Made by a program: the position numbers and the translations under genes. Below the pieces are notes generated by a model. That model saw only the letters and a list, made by a program, of their open reading frames with translations. It did not search any database and was not told the origin of the DNA. This document shows positions 12,591 through 19,927 of a stretch of DNA of 52,617 nt, piece after piece. Numbering within the stretch: the first letter of the stretch is position 1; the number at the start of each line of letters is the position of its first letter. The stretch comes from Kiritimatiellia bacterium (GTDB lineage: Bacteria; Verrucomicrobiota; Kiritimatiellia; JAAZAB01). The stretch covers positions 1 through 52,617 of the forward strand of contig JAQUQV010000009.1 of assembly GCA_028715905.1 (NCBI GenBank), in the 5' to 3' direction.

Positions 12591-12920
12591 ATGAACTTAT
12601 CCTCTAAGTATCAACCGTGGGTGGAAGCGCGAAATAAATTCCATTTGTCTCATGCCCACATTCAGATGGCGCGAGAACTCGGCCTTAATCCTAAGAAATT
12701 CGGGCGTCTCGCGAATCACAGGCAGGAGACCTGGAAGGCGCCATTGGCCGAATTTATCGCCGAACTTTACAGAAAACGGTTTGGCAGGAGTCAGCCGGCT
12801 GATACCCGGCCGCTTGAACGGATCATTGAGGACGGAAAGCGCAAGAAGGCCGAGCGCAAGGCCCTGCGAAGAGAAGAAATCTCCAATATCCTTCATGGCG
12901 CGAACGGGGGCGCCGCATGA
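12591..12920 (+). CDS. Conserved hypothetical protein (109 aa), first gene of a three-gene cluster
   Basis: Small basic, hydrophilic protein. The N-terminal half (SSKYQPWVEARNKFHLSHAH, MARELGLNPKKFG) is a motif I recognise from many uncharacterised bacterial proteins without a known function. The C-terminal part is charged and helical (ERIIEDGKRKKAERKALRRE). AGGAAAA lies just before the ATG; a TTG four codons upstream is less likely. Its stop overlaps the next gene's start (ATGA), so the two are translationally coupled. No enzymatic motif is visible. Being inside the island, it may be accessory. Confidence 0.75.
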   Translation: MNLSSKYQPWVEARNKFHLSHAHIQMARELGLNPKKFGRLANHRQETWKAPLAEFIAELYRKRFGRSQPADTRPLERIIEDGKRKKAERKALRREEISNILHGANGGAA

Positions 12921-13735
12921 CGCCAGCGCAGGAAGTTCGACGATTCCTCGCAAGCGGAGAATATGATGCGCTTTATAGCGCGTGGCCTGGCGGCGACCTG
13001 ATCGTCAAAGCGCGCAAGGGCGAACATGCGTTGAAACAGGCCCTGGTTACTGAGGTCCGCCGTCGTGCGAAAGGTCGATATTTACCGCCGCTACCTCCTG
13101 GCTTCAATCCATCGCAATTCACGCTCGGTAAGGTGGGTTCGATGGTGCGTGGCCTTTTCCCGCGAAAGGAACAACGGACTGTGTTCAGGCTGTTTGACAA
13201 GTCGCTCGTGTTCCTCACCCCTGGCAGTATCGGGCAGATTCTTGCCGGAATGACTTGGATGGAGACCGCATGGCAGGTCGCCAACCTGTACCTCGGCAGT
13301 CTTGACCTTCCTGGCTTGGACGGTAAACCAGTGCGCCTTGTCGGTCTGAGTGAGGAAACAACGTTTTTTGTTTCCATGGCTTACTTCCAGGAGAAAAATC
13401 CCTTTGCGGACTACGTGGTGCACGAAGCCGCGCATGTCTTCCACAACTGGAAGCGCAATCGGGAGGGTCTGCGCCACACTCGCGCGCGAGAGTTTCTGCT
13501 CCCAATCGCTTTCAAAAAGAGAGAACTCTTTGCCTACGCCTGCGAGGTCTACAGCAGAATACTGGAACAGGCCAGGAATCCGGCCGACAGAAAACGCCTT
13601 CACACCGACTATGCGGCAAAATGGATTCCAGCAGGGGATGGTCTCGATCAAACCGAACTGGCTGATATTCTTGCAAAGGCTGTAACTGTCCGAAACGGTT
13701 GGCAACACATCCTCCAACGCTGCAGCCATCCTTGA
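12917..13735 (+). CDS. Uncharacterised protein with HExxH motif, possible zinc metallopeptidase
   Basis: 272-residue soluble protein. HEAAH at residues 169-173, set in an amphipathic helix (YVVHEAAHVFHNWKR), fits the HExxH zinc motif, and a conserved-looking ELFAYACEVY about 30 residues on could supply the third ligand. No signal peptide or membrane helix is seen, so the protein is likely cytoplasmic. The start overlaps the previous gene by 4 bp; the next gene begins about 35 bp later. I do not recognise a named family. Peptidase activity is an inference from one motif. Confidence 0.7.
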   Translation: MTPAQEVRRFLASGEYDALYSAWPGGDLIVKARKGEHALKQALVTEVRRRAKGRYLPPLPPGFNPSQFTLGKVGSMVRGLFPRKEQRTVFRLFDKSLVFLTPGSIGQILAGMTWMETAWQVANLYLGSLDLPGLDGKPVRLVGLSEETTFFVSMAYFQEKNPFADYVVHEAAHVFHNWKRNREGLRHTRAREFLLPIAFKKRELFAYACEVYSRILEQARNPADRKRLHTDYAAKWIPAGDGLDQTELADILAKAVTVRNGWQHILQRCSHP

Positions 13736-13769
13736 TCAGTTTGAGGATAATCATAGATTGCAACGAACA

Positions 13770-14444
13770 ATGACTATCGGCCGTGAAAAACTACGAACGG
13801 CCATTCGAAGACTCGGGAATAAGCACGTCTACTTCATGCTTGAGGAAGCCATAGCCTTGCTGCCGCCATCCAAACTGGCTAAACTCGCGGGACAATACTT
13901 CGACGTGAAGAGCCTTAAATCGAATCCCGGTAACGGCTTGGGGCTTCTCGCTCAAGTGAAGGAATTTGAAAAGGCAAGCCTTGCGGGTGACTACTACGAG
14001 AGCTTCGCCGTCAACTCCAAGAACTACCGAGAAATGCCCGGCGGCACGCAAGCTTGGATTGCCGAATGCCGGCGTTTGCTGGGCCGCTGCGTGATTGCGG
14101 CCAAGAAGAGCGATCCTGCCGAAGCCAGGGAGGCCATGGAAACCATTTTCGGCCTGTTGCGTCATATTGACGAGTGTCTCGACGATGTTGTTTTCTTTGC
14201 CGACGAGGGATGTTCATGGCAGATTGGCGTTGACTGGAAAACTGTTTTGCCGTCGTGGTTCGCCTGCCTTTCGGCAACGACTGACGCGGTCGAATACGCA
14301 CGCCGGGTTATTGAAGTCGTGGACGAGTTCGTGAAATACGATCGGGAAATGTTTCTTGTCGTGGCTTGCCGTAAAGCTTCTTCCGCGCAGAGAAAAACCC
14401 TTGTTGGTCTTTTAGGAACAAAATGGCGCAAGAACAGTTCGTAA
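13770..14444 (+). CDS. Conserved hypothetical protein (224 aa)
   Basis: Mostly helical, soluble protein with no signal peptide, membrane segment or catalytic motif that I can name. Features visible are HVYFMLEEAIALLPPSKLAK near the start, an acidic helix (RHIDECLDDVVFFADEG) and WQIGVDWKTVLPSWFACL in the middle. The ATG at 13770 is chosen for similarity to a normal start (MTIGREKLRTAIRRL); a TTG at 13758 has a better-placed AGGAT and could be used instead. It follows the HEAAH protein on the same strand with a 35-bp gap, so the three genes 12591-14444 are probably one unit. Downstream lies only gene debris. Confidence 0.65.
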   Translation: MTIGREKLRTAIRRLGNKHVYFMLEEAIALLPPSKLAKLAGQYFDVKSLKSNPGNGLGLLAQVKEFEKASLAGDYYESFAVNSKNYREMPGGTQAWIAECRRLLGRCVIAAKKSDPAEAREAMETIFGLLRHIDECLDDVVFFADEGCSWQIGVDWKTVLPSWFACLSATTDAVEYARRVIEVVDEFVKYDREMFLVVACRKASSAQRKTLVGLLGTKWRKNSS

Positions 14445-14800: not shown

Positions 14801-15083
14801 TCAATCCCAGACACGGGACTGAAGGGTCTCCCTCAGGATCAGTTTCAAGCCTTTTCGTCCTGCCGTTGTCTTCAGATACATTTCGTGGCGTTCGGCGTCT
14901 TCCTTGGAAAAGAATTACTCACAAAAGATTAGCCGAAATGGGCGGCGGGGTGCAGTGGCGGCGGATTGACCATGGAAATGTTCGGTTAAACGGCGTTTGA
15001 GGTCGGTTGTAAAGCCTACATAATAAGTCGCCGTCGTGCATAGAGAGCAGGACGTAGACGCAGTATTGGAGCTTGGCGGGCAT
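14801..15083 (-). pseudogene. GIY-YIG endonuclease-like gene, frameshifted and with an internal stop
   Basis: The minus strand reads MPAKLQYCVYVLLSMHDGDL, then (in another frame) YVGFTTDLKRRLTEHFHG, then RPFRLIFCE, a stop, and FFSKEDAERHEMYLKTTAGR to a final stop at 14801. This is the small YhbQ-type GIY-YIG domain. One extra base breaks the frame at about codon 20, and a TAA-type change interrupts it at CE-stop-FF. The frameshift lies exactly at 15025, where the 209-bp repeat begins, so the first twenty codons belong to the repeat. Confidence 0.85.
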
Positions 15084-15233
15084 GTTTCAAATAATACGGT
15101 TGGATTGGGTAGAAAGCAATCCTTGTTTCTAACGAAGCGGGAGGAGAATCATGGGAAGAAGAGACAGTGAAGCAGAACCTTCGGTTCGCTTCACCGCCAC
15201 ACAGTGAACCTTGTTCTACTGTGTGGCTCCGCG
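15025..15233. repeat. 209-bp direct repeat, left copy (includes a tRNA-Asn 3' end)
   Basis: Matches 19654-19862 with no indels and about six mismatches. The right end (GTGTGGCTCCGCG) is the last ten bases of tRNA-Asn with its CCA and flank; the left end holds the first twenty codons of the GIY-YIG gene. The two copies bracket 4.4 kb of DNA. Confidence 0.92.
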
Positions 15234-15356
15234 GACTATACACAAAAACGAACAACGTTTGTCCTGAATATAATCATCGGAATGCCGATTTGCAAGCAAG
15301 GTTTTCAACCGTTCGTTCTCCATCCGATTCCCTATCCAGTGGACGTGATTCAAAAG
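15234..15356. other. Short stretch after the left repeat, no supported gene
   Basis: The frame of the next gene is open here and could add 51 codons from a GTG at 15204 or 25 from an ATG at 15282, but the amino acids are unlike a folded domain and neither start has a ribosome site. Confidence 0.4.
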
Positions 15357-15722
15357 ATGACTACCGAAGTAGGCGCAGTAACAAGAAGCGAGACTCGCAT
15401 TCGGCACCCGATTCACTTGGCTCTGGAATGGAAACGAGTGCTGAACTCCGACGGGAATATGACCTTGGCGAAAATTGCCAGAGAAAAGGGGTTTTCGCGT
15501 GCTCGCGTCACACAAATCATGCACCTTCTTTGTCTTGACGAACGGATACAGAAGCACTTTTTGAAAATTACTGCCGCCACTGATATCGCGTTCTTTTCTG
15601 AGCGGCAGTTGAGGGTGATTGCCGCATTGAAAAGTATGGAGCAACAGATAGCGGCATTCAAGGCGCTTGTGGTGGAGCGCGATCATACAGTTGAAGGTCT
15701 CTCCTTTTCGGGACAAGCATAA
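15357..15722 (+). CDS. HTH protein of the type found beside serine recombinases
   Basis: About 121 residues. It contains RIRHPIHLALEWKRVL, then LAKIAREKGFSRARVTQIMH (a helix-turn-helix), LLCLDERIQKHFL, and FFSERQLRVIAAL. This pattern matches the ParB/KorB-like small proteins commonly encoded directly downstream of phage-type serine recombinases. No recombinase is left here. The true start is uncertain: the frame continues into the upstream repeat, and 15357 is chosen because the recognisable sequence begins there. Its presence next to repeat copy 1 supports an origin in an integrated element whose recombinase has been lost. Confidence 0.65.
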   Translation: MTTEVGAVTRSETRIRHPIHLALEWKRVLNSDGNMTLAKIAREKGFSRARVTQIMHLLCLDERIQKHFLKITAATDIAFFSERQLRVIAALKSMEQQIAAFKALVVERDHTVEGLSFSGQA

Positions 15723-15920
15723 TCCTGTTTTTGCCCTATTCATGTTGATTTCAGCCCCGTATTTAATAACAGTCCATCGGCTTTTTTCGGGACATTCGGG
15801 ACAACCCCGCCAGATTTAATACGATAATGGACAGAGCGGATTGTCCCGATTCGCTCGATTATTTCGTGCCGAAAATGCTTTATATCCACAGCCAAATCCA
15901 TATTATAAAACCTATCAGTT

Positions 15921-17309
15921 GTGAAACAGCGATCTAAAAAAACGCAGTTTCCGCCCGAAAGCGAAACGGTGGAATGGAAGCAGTCGCTCGGCGAATGGAA
16001 AGAAATCGTCGAAACGTGCGCTGCTTTTGCCACGGCCCAGGGCGGAACCGTCTATGTTGGCATCAGCCCGGAGGGTAAACGAGTCGGTGTTCAGATTGGC
16101 CAAGGGACGATCGAAGATATCGCCAATAAAATCAGGATCAACGCCGATCCTCCTCAATTCCCCTCCATCGCTATCTCTGGCCCAGAAAATTCGGCGGTTT
16201 TAAAGATTCATATTGAGCAGAATCCTGTAAAACCAGTCTGGGCTTTCGGACGGCCGATGAAACGAGTCGGCAGAACCAACCAGCACCTTCGGCGTGACGA
16301 ATCTCAGCGGTTGTTGGAGATTTCAACGGGACGCACATGGGACACCTTTGTCTGCAGTGAGTTCATAGACAAAGATATCAGCAAAAAGGCGGTCAAGGAA
16401 TTTCTCAGACGAGCCGGAATGAAGATGTCCACATCGGTCGAAGACGTCATGAGGAATCTCAAGCTCGTGACCCATAGTGGTTTCACCAATGCTGCCGTTC
16501 TACTGTTTGGCAAGTACCCCCAGCGTTTCTTTGTGGAAGCACAGACAAAGTGCGCCCGTTTTAAGGGCACAAGTTCTGTCCATTTCCTCGATGAACGTAC
16601 ATTGGAGGGGCCTATTCTGGAACAACTCGACAATGCCATGGCATTTGTCACCCGCAATACCCGCCAGGCAATAGTCATTACAGGCAGGCCCGAGCGTGAT
16701 ATTATTCCAGAGTATCCGGACGATGCTGTTCGCGAAGCCATTACCAACGCCCTATGTCATCGCAACTACGCCGAGGTTGGAACTATACAGGTTCGAATTT
16801 ACGATAACTGTCTTGAGGTCTGGAATCCAGGCTCTCTTCCGAATGATATCTCTGTTAGCGAGCTATATCACAAGCACCGTTCATGCCCCCGGAACATGCT
16901 ATTGGCTGGCGCTCTTTTCAGGGCACGGCTCATAGAGCATTGGGGTACGGGTACGCTTCGGATCATTGAGGCGTGCAAGAAACACAACATCAAGGTTGAA
17001 TTCGAGAACAAGGCCAGTACGTTTATCGTCCGCCTTAAACAGAGGTCTCAAAGGGTAGGGTCGCCGACCCAGTCGCCGACCCAGTCGGGCGACCCAGTCA
17101 CACGCCTGCTGTCCGCGTTGCAAACCGGTGAGTTATCTTCCGGTGAACTGCGGAACATGTTGGGCATCAAGCACAGGCCAACGTTTCGGCAAAACTATCT
17201 TCATCCGGCACTATCTTCTCATTTGATTACGCTTACCATTCCCGACAAGCCCAACAGCCGGCTTCAGAAATATCGGCTGACGGAAAAGGGTAAGGCCATG
17301 CTGTCGTAA
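15921..17309 (+). CDS. AlbA_2/HATPase_c_4 regulator-like ATP-binding protein (COG2865)
   Basis: 462 residues. The N-terminal AlbA_2 (Schlafen-like) domain is at about 14-130 (ESETVEWKQSLGEWKEIVET, FATAQGGTVYVGIS). A GHKL-type ATPase segment at about 265-350 has PDDAVREAITNALCHRNY as the N-box and IEHWGTGTLRI as a G-box. The C-terminal winged helix at about 380-462 ends in KYRLTEKGKAML. Between them is a short SPTQ tandem repeat. The family is labelled predicted transcriptional regulators, and some relatives act in defence or toxin-antitoxin settings. The start is GTG with no clear ribosome site. It heads a tight operon: the CcbP gene follows after 16 bp and the nuclease 17 bp after that. Confidence 0.85.
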   Translation: MKQRSKKTQFPPESETVEWKQSLGEWKEIVETCAAFATAQGGTVYVGISPEGKRVGVQIGQGTIEDIANKIRINADPPQFPSIAISGPENSAVLKIHIEQNPVKPVWAFGRPMKRVGRTNQHLRRDESQRLLEISTGRTWDTFVCSEFIDKDISKKAVKEFLRRAGMKMSTSVEDVMRNLKLVTHSGFTNAAVLLFGKYPQRFFVEAQTKCARFKGTSSVHFLDERTLEGPILEQLDNAMAFVTRNTRQAIVITGRPERDIIPEYPDDAVREAITNALCHRNYAEVGTIQVRIYDNCLEVWNPGSLPNDISVSELYHKHRSCPRNMLLAGALFRARLIEHWGTGTLRIIEACKKHNIKVEFENKASTFIVRLKQRSQRVGSPTQSPTQSGDPVTRLLSALQTGELSSGELRNMLGIKHRPTFRQNYLHPALSSHLITLTIPDKPNSRLQKYRLTEKGKAMLS

Positions 17310-17325
17310 TGAAAGGTGTAACACC

Positions 17326-17673
17326 ATGCCGCGCAAACAAATTCAACTCAAATGTCCCTCGCATGTTCTCAGTCAACAGCGACTGGACGAGATGATAGAA
17401 GAGGCTACGGTAGACTGTTACAACGAATCCGAACAGGTCACCGGACTGTTCACGATGCTGGAAGAAAATTTAGCTCTTCCATTTAGGACTACCTTGCTCG
17501 GCATGGAGGTCGCAGTCGAGAAAATCGATCTAAACGATGCAGAGGAAATCGTGGTGGTCTGCAAACGAGGTTCGGAGAGACAGCGGGTGCCGATCCTTGA
17601 TTTGCCTTTGCCGACTCCAAAACCGGTCGGGTCAGATTGGATTGAAGCGTATCGTGAATGGGCGAAAGGATAA
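17326..17673 (+). CDS. CcbP-like putative calcium-binding protein
   Basis: 115-residue acidic protein. The central part (EEATVDCYNESEQVTGLFTM, then EENLALPFRTTLLGMEVAVE) matches the family named after cyanobacterial CcbP, a calcium-binding regulator of heterocyst formation (PF11535). The later DLNDAEEIVVVCKRG and DWIEAYREWAKG are also typical. Outside cyanobacteria the role is unknown, and calcium binding here is only inferred. A ribosome site (GAAAGGTG) precedes the ATG. It lies between the AlbA_2 protein and the nuclease with gaps under 20 bp, so it is probably part of the same functional unit. Confidence 0.8.
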   Translation: MPRKQIQLKCPSHVLSQQRLDEMIEEATVDCYNESEQVTGLFTMLEENLALPFRTTLLGMEVAVEKIDLNDAEEIVVVCKRGSERQRVPILDLPLPTPKPVGSDWIEAYREWAKG

Positions 17674-17690
17674 AATAAATCAACAAAGCC

Positions 17691-18443
17691 ATGGATGACA
17701 ACATTCCGCAATGGGTTTTTCCTGAGCCAGACAAGTTCGGCTTCAGCGAAGGAGGAATCAAGATAGAGACTTCATACAATCGCTCAAGACCATTGGAGAT
17801 TGTGGCAGACGATCGCGAGCAACCGTCGGGCGTGATCGAACACCTGCTGTCACATGAGGTGTTCCGGGTTACCGTTCGCCGCTTGAAACTGGGCGACTAT
17901 CTGGTCGGTAATCGCGTGCTCATTGAGCGCAAAACGGTTTCCGATCTCTCGGCTTCAATCATTGACGGACGTTTATTTCGCCAGGCATGTCTCCTTGCGG
18001 AAAGCGCTTATCGTCCCCTCATGCTTATAGAAGGGCATGTTTCCGAGGGGGATGTATCCGGCGTAAGCAGAGAGGCTATTCAGGGAGCACTCATTACACT
18101 CGCCATTTTCTTGAATATTCCCTGCCTGCGTTCTTTTGATGTAAAGGAAAGCGCAAATCTAATCTATTACGCGGGGTTACAAATGCATCGCAACATCAGC
18201 CGCGGTGTATATCGGCATGGCTATCGTCCAAAACGTCGAAGAAACAGACAGCTTTTCATCCTTCAAGGGCTTCCCGGCATTGGTCCGGCCCGGGCCGAGC
18301 GGTTGCTGGAGACATTTGGCAGTATTGAGAACGTATTCCATGCCGATGTCGAAACGTTGTCACGTGTTGTTGGGATAGGACGTAAAACAGCAGAAGCCAT
18401 CAGGGAACTGGTTGGTCCTGACGTTGACCGGAATTCAGAATAG
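17691..18443 (+). CDS. ERCC4/XPF-type nuclease with C-terminal helix-hairpin-helix
   Basis: 250-residue predicted structure-specific DNA endonuclease. The nuclease motif is intact: VADDRE (residues 39-43), then GDY (68-70), IERK (78-81) and D85, the GDxnERKx3D signature that binds the metal. A (HhH)2 DNA-binding domain fills about 187-245 (LPGIGPARAERLLETFGSIE, VVGIGRKTAEAIREL). The layout equals the C-terminal half of archaeal XPF/Hef without the helicase. These enzymes cut 3'-flap or branched DNA. In bacteria such genes are uncommon and usually accessory. It is last in the operon; the ATG has AAAGGA rather far upstream. Confidence 0.9.
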   Translation: MDDNIPQWVFPEPDKFGFSEGGIKIETSYNRSRPLEIVADDREQPSGVIEHLLSHEVFRVTVRRLKLGDYLVGNRVLIERKTVSDLSASIIDGRLFRQACLLAESAYRPLMLIEGHVSEGDVSGVSREAIQGALITLAIFLNIPCLRSFDVKESANLIYYAGLQMHRNISRGVYRHGYRPKRRRNRQLFILQGLPGIGPARAERLLETFGSIENVFHADVETLSRVVGIGRKTAEAIRELVGPDVDRNSE

Positions 18444-18867
18444 AAAAGTGTGTTATCGTTGAAGCATCAGTGAGTAAGGAGCAAACTGATTGTTCAGTAT
18501 GACGCCAGAGAGATTCTCGATGGCGTGAGCAGTCGCGAATCTATCCGAAACGAGAAACAGCAAGAGGAGATATAGACATGCGAATTACAGCCTGCCGCAG
18601 ACAGTATCTATCAGATCACAGTTCTACGAACTATCTGTTCCAAAGCGGGCTCTGCCCGCAACCCAATGTTATTAATGCTTCCTTCCCCATGTGGTGCGAA
18701 TTTGGTTCGAAAAAGGCGGCGGCGATTCCGGCTCATCTGGCCCGTTGCCGCCCTCGCGCATACACGAGTATAGCGCTTCGCGCGGCGCCGGCCCATCTGA
18801 ACCGGACTGGCCTTTCTTTTTCGAATCCGGCTCCGCCGGAAGCCAAATTCGCCCCACGCTTGCATCG
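18444..18867. other. Non-coding stretch containing a long imperfect inverted repeat
   Basis: No gene is supported. From about 18686 to 18870 the sequence folds back on itself: GTGCGAATTTGG and TTCGAAAAAG on the left recur as reverse complements on the right (TTTTTCGAA, CCAAATTCGCCCC), with the centre near 18775 (GCATAC-ACGA-GTAT). Both strands are therefore open over this stretch, which explains several misleading reading frames. Confidence 0.65.
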
Positions 18868-19653
18868 GGCTTCGCTCTGCGCTACGCCCGAGTTCAGACT
18901 TTCTCTGTTGCTTCTTCCAATGAACGCAAGGAAGCCATTGCCCATCAACGCCAACGCGACTTGGGCATCAAACACGGTCTCATCGGCGTCTGGTCCTGCG
19001 TCGAAGCCTGTTCCTCTTTCCGCGCCCACTATGACGCCCAGGCCGGTTTCCCTCAGCCGCGGCATCTCTTTTCCCGCTGCAAACATCTTTACTTTTATTA
19101 CGACCATCCCCTCTTCGGCTTTATGAGTGTCCGCCTCCAAACCTGGTTTCCCTACGGCATTCAGATCGCATTCAACAACCGCTTCATGGATCAAATGGCT
19201 GCCGTTAAAGACACGCAACCCTTCCGCCAAATCCTTGATGCTCTCTCAAAACCACGCCTTCAAAACTCCCGCCGTATCCGCTCCCTGGAAATAACCGGCA
19301 AAGACCGGGAATTCCTTCAGGCCTTGTCCGATCCGAAGTTTGCCGTCTCCGGCCTGACCAATAAAGACCTGCGTCAAATACTCCGCCTTACCCCCTGGGC
19401 CAAGGGCGGATCCGAAAAACAGCTTTCCGCCCGCATCAGCCGCCATTTGCGCCTTATGCGCGAGCACGGCCTCATCCGCAAAATGCCCAACCAGCGCCGT
19501 TATCTTCTCACTTCCTCAGGCCAAATATTAACCACCGCGCATATATTTCATCCCACATCATCCTTACCCGGCATTCTTTTCTTGCTTCTCATCACGGCTT
19601 TTGACATTTCAGGTGCTATCAAATACAGTTGCCGCTTTTGGCGGCCTAATTGA
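18868..19653 (+). pseudogene. Conserved hypothetical protein with a large internal deletion
   Basis: The first part (NERKEAIAHQRQRDLGIKHG, GVWSCVEACSSF, CKHLYFYYDHPLFGFMSVRL, TWFPYGIQIAFNNR) and the last part (KDTQPFRQILDAL, FAVSGLTNKDLRQIL, RLMREHGLIRKMPNQRRYLL) belong to one uncharacterised bacterial family that I recall as having about 200 more residues between them. The join is near 19201 and stays in frame, so a shortened protein could be made. The upstream codons come from the inverted repeat and are not a natural N-terminus. The last twenty codons are encoded by the dispersed 21-bp repeat. I cannot assign a function. The winged-helix-like C-terminus suggests DNA binding. Confidence 0.6.
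19616..19645. repeat. Dispersed 21-bp repeat, copy 2, with GC hairpin
   Basis: Positions 19616-19636 equal 8513-8533. The following GCCGC-TTTT-GGCGGC forms a tight stem-loop. It lies just outside the right 209-bp repeat. Confidence 0.75.
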
Positions 19654-19862
19654 AAGTCGCCGTCGTGCATAGAGAGCAGGACATAAACGCAGTATTGGAG
19701 CTTGGCGGGCATGTTTCAAATAATACGGTTGGATTGGGTAGAAAGCAATCCTTGTTTCTAGCGAAGCGGGAGGAGAATCATGGGAAGAAGAGACAGTGAA
19801 GCAGAACCTTCGGTTCACTTCACCGCCACACAGTGAACTTCGTTCTACTGTGTGGCTCCGCG
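19654..19862. repeat. 209-bp direct repeat, right copy, ending inside tRNA-Asn
   Basis: Partner of 15025-15233. Its last ten bases are the 3' end of the intact tRNA-Asn gene. Only the first twenty codons of the GIY-YIG gene are present here, ending at 19654. Confidence 0.92.
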
Positions 19863-19927
19863 AGCAGGGCTCGAACCTGCAACCTAGTGGTTAACAGCCA
19901 CCCGCTCTACCATTGAGCTATCGCGGA
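19853..19927 (-). tRNA. tRNA-Asn (anticodon GTT)
   Basis: Acceptor TCCGCGA pairs with TCGCGGA, discriminator G, CCA encoded. D-arm GCTCAATGGTAGAGC, anticodon loop CTGTTAA with GTT, T-arm GCAGGTTCGAGCCCTGC. Its 3' end is duplicated at 15222-15233, making it a likely past integration site. With its G34 it is a target of queuosine modification, for which queC/E/D are present in the window. Confidence 0.97.

Follow-up and report, generated by a model that had tools for sequence, protein, structure and literature searches.

A probable remnant of a tRNA-Asn element with a self-splitting serine integrase gene and three candidate conflict genes in a Kiritimatiellia bacterium

The window analysed here, positions 1–52,617 of contig JAQUQV010000009.1 of a Kiritimatiellia bacterium (GCA_028715905.1), contains at positions 15225–19853 what is quite probably the immobilised remnant of an element directed to tRNA-Asn, with its attachment site (attP) inside its own large serine integrase gene and with three genes as cargo. 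Anatomy, homology, split reading frame and target tRNA are matters of sequence in this explanation, which adds by inference the recombination activity and the role of the cargo in conflict. In the circular form of such an element, a single frame would begin with the resolvase domain, pass the core GGCTCC and continue into the C-terminal HTH domain, and the integrase would attack the 3′ end of tRNA-Asn. Integration would cut the gene into two parts, of which int(N) would end antisense in the tRNA and int(C) would stay at the far end, and the split element should not excise unless an intact integrase is provided in trans. In the window, int(N) would be gone and int(C) kept at the left edge, and the AlbA_2/GHKL, CcbP-like and ERCC4 genes would form the cargo, probably as one transcript encoding a conflict (anti-mobile-element) module. 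In what follows, G-numbers designate genomes and L-numbers loci.

The tRNA-Asn segment

The segment is bounded by two direct repeats of 209 nt that are 97% identical (Table 1). The right copy extends into the 3′ end of tRNA-Asn and stops within it, and the core GGCTCCGC is the complement of this 3′ end. Both G+C and GC3 of the segment are below those of the adjacent housekeeping genes. An earlier note on this DNA had placed the three genes in a tRNA-bounded, repeat-flanked accessory segment where defence systems often occur. This description is right, the segment being accessory, mobile and linked to a tRNA. A dispersed repeat was also considered for the 209-nt sequence, and was ruled out by its presence in two copies only in the genome.

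Two adjoining ORFs of 272 and 228 aa, with no family matches and of lowered GC, lie at 12917–14444 between tRNA-Pro and the element. Small GIY-YIG genes are found beside a strong hairpin, just 3′ of or near target tRNAs (Asn, Glu), at L156, L155 and L256 as well as in the window, and may belong to the host flank or to an older element.

Table 1. Features of the tRNA-Asn segment and its borders (positions of the window).
Feature	Position	Strand	Remarks
GIY-YIG pseudogene	14804–15083	−	Frameshift and internal stop; tblastn 86% identity to the GIY-YIG gene of L155
Left copy of 209-nt direct repeat	15025–15233		
Putative distal attachment-site core GGCTCCGC	15225–15232	+	Copy of tRNA-Asn 3′ end; same core ahead of most int(C) genes of the family
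Putative int(C), stand-alone C-terminal HTH part of large serine recombinase	15225–15722	+	ORF start 15204; annotated ParB-like HTH
SLFN_AlbA_2, HATPase_c_4 (GHKL) and Fic-like_C winged-helix protein, 462 aa	15921–17309	+	
CcbP-fold protein, 115 aa	17326–17673	+	
XPF-type ERCC4-HhH nuclease, helicase-free, 250 aa	17691–18443	+	
ORF without family, 320 aa	18691–19653	+	Between cargo and tRNA-proximal repeat
Right copy of 209-nt direct repeat	19654–19862		Hairpin beside tRNA 3′ end and first GIY-YIG codons
Core GGCTCCGC	19854–19861	+	Inside tRNA-Asn 3′ end
tRNA-Asn(GTT)	19853–19927	−	Putative integration target

A candidate split integrase

Stand-alone homologues of the HTH ORF upstream of the cargo were detected in 15 of the 240 genomes of the class. 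In a profile (HMM) search the same HTH domain was found as the C-terminus of intact large serine recombinases of about 700 aa in three genomes (L236, L238, L239), and recombinase and HTH are present as two adjacent ORFs in some others (L162, L163, L237). At most 90 nt ahead of the HTH gene, the window and 10 of 12 homologous loci feature the motif GGCTCC(G/C)C with CGAAC behind it at a nearly constant distance, compared to a background of 6 out of 1115 ORFs in the same loci with the octamer upstream. The layout of the window, i.e. core, int(C), cargo and intact tRNA-Asn in this order, recurs in G366 (L156), G248 (L160) and G421 (L161), and the cargo behind the HTH homologues varies (AbiEi/AbiEii, TOTE, other AlbA_2 proteins, a DUF4143 ATPase). 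These comparisons indicate that the “ParB-HTH” ORF corresponds to the DNA-binding C-terminus of a large serine recombinase. Such an integrase half, which the earlier note had overlooked, would explain the presence of a tRNA and of an attachment-site copy in the window. A 148-aa coiled-coil ORF that L156 carries at its tRNA end was considered as an int(N) remnant, a link that comparison did not demonstrate.

The candidate counterpart of this ORF was found in G369, which contains two PF07508 recombinases that both run antisense into tRNA-Asn (L249/L252 and L251/L253). These proteins of 580 and 576 aa combine Resolvase, Recombinase and Zn-ribbon domains (PF00239, PF07508, PF13408) with a coiled coil. 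Their C-termini read ...PRGWLLGQGSNLQPSG or differ from it slightly, and the final residues are encoded by the tRNA complement. One of these int(N) genes shares its contig with an HTH gene that is preceded by the core and located 60 kb off (L155). All relatives are draft or metagenome assemblies, and this is the only complete int(N) and int(C) pair among them, the second int(N) of G369 being located on a contig that breaks off early. When the two parts are fused in silico at the core, they yield a single frame of 723 aa, which aligns with the intact recombinase of L236 (33.5% over 617 columns, E = 3e-124) unbroken across the junction, and also with those of L238 and L239. The open joined frame is weak evidence by itself because a random stretch of 153 codons was open in 13% of trials; distal halves joined in frame in five of five cases tested, with conserved residues across the core (WLRRPLPDTNF).

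Two further genomic situations bear on the position of the attachment site. In G248, an int(N) fragment corresponding to the last ~85 residues (about 492–576) is kept beside tRNA-Asn, and the core is read as GIGS in this relic and in int(C) alike, in a frame that differs from that of G369. A second subfamily (G271 and G419) features the core GGCACCCCCAAC; the tRNA 3′ end predicted from it, TTGGGGGTGCC, occurs once in each of the two genomes and is that of tRNA-Glu. In G419, moreover, an intact tRNA-Glu on a different contig is followed by the same sequence as the distal core, and serves as the unoccupied site. We conclude from this body of sequence comparison that attP would be situated within the integrase gene, with the coiled-coil part on one side and the HTH on the other, and that the integrase would be split on integration in the manner of the archaeal “suicidal” integrases.

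It is very unlikely that the HTH ORF is instead an ordinary ParB-like regulator that lies beside the tRNA repeat by chance. Such a regulator would fit the best Pfam name of the ORF, HTH_ParB, and the state of the stand-alone gene, which is intact and under apparent purifying selection (dN/dS mostly 0.2–0.5), but it would account neither for the HTH being fused, in three genomes, to the catalytic domains of serine recombinases nor for a gene start at the att core, a joined frame that aligns through the junction, and the agreement of the core frame between int(N) relic and int(C) in G248.

The element of the window reads as a relic of such a split integrase element. Its int(C) gene and distal core are intact, with a decayed GIY-YIG gene just outside, and this native flank is also found past the core in G369. 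No int(N) relic was found in the window, and no PF07508 recombinase in the window genome, which is 96% complete. On the tRNA side the structure is not that of a clean attR, with 199 nt of native flank following tRNA-Asn before the 320-aa ORF is reached. A later rearrangement of the tRNA-proximal end is assumed because this flank separates tRNA-Asn from the cargo side. With int(N) absent and the tRNA end rearranged, the element would therefore be a relic consisting of int(C) and cargo, the latter probably fixed in the chromosome.

Relation to known integrating elements

The closest parallel to this arrangement is provided by the archaeal suicidal (SSV-type) integrases of SSV1, pTN3 and pT26-2, which are tyrosine recombinases described as exclusive to archaea (PMC8371274). 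They likewise have the att site inside the integrase gene, which is split into int(N) and int(C), and require an intact integrase in trans for excision. Self-splitting is apparent in G369, where the att site lies inside the gene and one part at the tRNA, and the window holds int(C) only. Unlike the archaeal enzymes, the integrase here is a large serine recombinase of bacteria, and its distal fragment is the C-terminal DNA-binding part rather than a catalytic one. Membership in the archaeal tyrosine family was considered and is ruled out by the serine recombinase domains PF00239, PF07508 and PF13408.

With the large serine integrases of phiC31, A118 and Bxb1, the proteins described here share the Resolvase, Recombinase and Zn-ribbon domains and the coiled coil; they differ in the extra C-terminal ParB-like HTH, in the predicted location of attP within the gene and in the target, the 3′ end of tRNA-Asn (or tRNA-Glu). 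Defence islands that integrate at tRNA genes by prophage-like integrases, including immobilised derivatives devoid of integrase, have been described in E. coli (PMC12458937). Common to these and to the present elements are defence cargo, direct repeats with one copy at the tRNA 3′ end, sequential integration and immobilised forms lacking an integrase, whereas the remnants found here keep half of a self-splitting serine integrase.

A search of the open-access literature for serine integrases with attP inside their own gene found none, which does not by itself prove novelty. If the proposed reading is correct, self-disrupting integrases would be extended for the first time beyond archaea and to the serine type, and their occurrence in bacteria would represent a convergent solution to one-way integration. 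The combination of int(C) and tRNA core would also help to locate small defence cassettes whose integrase has been lost.

Cargo genes and their associations

Three genes on one strand with gaps of 16 and 17 bp had been reported in the earlier note, together with their domain content, and both were recovered here, the genes with the same coordinates and strand. The first protein features SLFN_AlbA_2 (3e-14) and HATPase_c_4 (3e-18) domains, both above Pfam cut-offs, and a Fic-like_C winged helix (8e-28). Its residues 25–317 also match the PADLOC pAgo model (3e-18), probably due to an AlbA_2 region fused in that model. The second protein shows a weak sequence match to CcbP (5e-5, over the Pfam cut-off), and the best PDB match (Foldseek) of its AlphaFold2 model (pLDDT 84) is CcbP of Anabaena (3urg, probability 1.00, TM 0.68). 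Judged on this predicted structure, the CcbP assignment is sound at the level of the fold. The protein differs from Anabaena CcbP in its sequence (16% identity) and in its link to conflict genes; its calcium binding is putative only, and a calcium response is speculative.

The third protein consists of an ERCC4 domain (2e-23) and a tandem HhH, with no helicase domain, and its nearest solved relative is an archaeal XPF (2bgw, 1e-29). The protein retains D69, E79-R80-K81 and D85 from the GDXnERKX3D motif, all of them invariant in 24 homologues. The NCBIfam Hef model is matched only at its positions 563–776 out of 781, i.e. without the N-terminal SF2 helicase of Hef; an AlphaFold2 model built from the single sequence (pLDDT 42) was left out of the analysis. 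The protein thus resembles archaeal XPF/Hef nucleases in its ERCC4 nuclease core and HhH2 region, and differs from them in being bacterial, helicase-free, sporadic and also present on Pseudomonas megaplasmids.

Domain knowledge suggests nucleic acid binding for the AlbA_2 part of the first protein and ATP-dependent regulation for its GHKL and winged-helix parts, and the ERCC4-HhH enzyme should, on the same grounds, cut flaps, forks or bubbles. In the proposed module, the AlbA_2/GHKL-winged-helix protein would act as a nucleic-acid-binding sensor or regulator and have the CcbP-fold protein for a small partner. Branched or flapped DNA would be cut by the XPF-type enzyme, which would take the place of the TOTE primase-helicase of related cassettes.

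Next to int(N), the 60-kb element of G369 carries a gene with a 1312-bit match to the PADLOC PDC-M23B model and a weaker one to Hachiman HamB helicases, together with genes for a type IIG methylase and an HKD-Snf2 helicase. The cargo of smaller cassettes includes AbiE and TOTE genes, and that of the tRNA-Asn cassette of G248 an AlbA_2 gene with TOTE. The three genes of the window are most likely conflict genes because the elements of relatives carry such defence company; an anti-mobile-element function of the three-gene operon is given slightly less than an even chance. Taken as a family, these are likely to be defence elements with a self-split serine integrase directed to tRNA-Asn or tRNA-Glu, leaving HTH-half relics and exchangeable cargo that includes an AlbA_2/CcbP module with TOTE or XPF-type effectors. 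Another pair of cargo genes, for a family-less protein of ~410 aa and an ankyrin-repeat protein, recurs at L161 (4785–7210) and L154 (2742–5128). TOTE primase-helicase genes are often located less than 0.5 kb from a tRNA (L194, Glu; L207, Met; L209, Phe; L219, Asn; L232, Phe), suggesting that TOTE genes in general travel on tRNA-targeting elements.

The closest five AlbA_2 homologues are 58–70% identical to the protein of the window, and one of them (70%, in G395) is directly followed by a CcbP-like gene. A TOTE gene is oriented divergently to this pair, and the three genes are enclosed by tRNA-Gln on one side and, 5.3 kb away, by a perfect 43-nt copy of the 3′ half of this tRNA on the other. 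AlbA_2–CcbP is thus a possible module of tRNA-linked conflict cassettes, with ERCC4 as the odd member. The two proteins could then form a two-gene module with changing effectors (TOTE in G395, ERCC4 in the window), in which ERCC4 is replaceable. CcbP genes also adjoin the TOTE primase-helicase in L046 (Deltaproteobacteria), L050 (Acidobacteria) and G211, and the AlbA_2 and TOTE genes of the G248 cassette point in the same direction. We nevertheless hold this two-gene reading to be possible rather than probable, given that the AlbA_2–CcbP pair occurs in two genomes only (that of the window and G395) and that CcbP is absent beside TOTE at 39 other TOTE loci of the class. ERCC4 is tied to AlbA_2/CcbP nowhere outside the window. 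The window resembles TOTE conflict systems (PF22548 AEP primase-helicase) in that CcbP-like and AlbA_2 genes adjoin TOTE in related cassettes, and differs in carrying an ERCC4 nuclease instead of a TOTE gene; the window genome (G000) has no match to the PF22548 core protein. Acceptance of the proposed family would tie CcbP-fold and AlbA_2/GHKL proteins to conflict genes of the TOTE type.

A dedicated, undescribed defence or repair operon made up of an AlbA_2/GHKL regulator, a calcium-responsive CcbP and an ERCC4 effector is improbable. The close spacing on one strand, the intact domains and catalytic residues, and the mobile, tRNA-linked site in an element whose relatives carry defence genes would all be expected of such an operon, but the families go separate ways elsewhere. 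Full-length ERCC4 homologues are scattered over about 30 of 388 genomes of the phylum. In 29 phylum neighbourhoods no CcbP-like gene was found beside ERCC4, and an AlbA_2-like gene occurs within 5 kb in two, adjacent in neither. ERCC4 genes on plasmids (155 records, mostly Pseudomonas megaplasmids) had unrelated neighbours in all eight regions read. The CcbP-like relatives known from other phyla and from Rhodococcus plasmids likewise stand beside different genes, and AlbA_2 homologues, present in 150 of 240 genomes of the class, mostly occur without CcbP or ERCC4. The idea of the earlier note that the three genes form a conserved system thus fails on its own co-occurrence check: the triplet was not seen again, ERCC4 lacks the other two as adjacent genes in 29 of 29 phylum loci and in the eight plasmid regions, and CcbP and AlbA_2 relatives are also found without ERCC4. 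Only 1 of the 29 ERCC4 loci has a tRNA within 1 kb, which indicates that ERCC4 is not itself a tRNA-element gene.

That ERCC4 is a housekeeping repair gene of the lineage, the rest being incidental, can be dismissed as barely credible despite its full-length relatives in the phylum, in view of sporadic distribution, variable neighbours, plasmid carriage, low GC3 and the lack of a full-length homologue in the four family members searched.

Phage records contained no ERCC4 gene, and viral contigs neither CcbP relatives nor the att motif. Three viral contigs encode ERCC4-like proteins distant from that of the window, and on one viral contig (L037, 6580–8927) a distant ERCC4-like gene adjoins a serine recombinase. 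XPF-type ERCC4-HhH genes are present on more than 130 Pseudomonas plasmids (e.g. pQBR103), mostly annotated simply as ERCC4 domain protein, and a single genome features two ERCC4-HhH genes 5 kb apart (L062, G257:C91).
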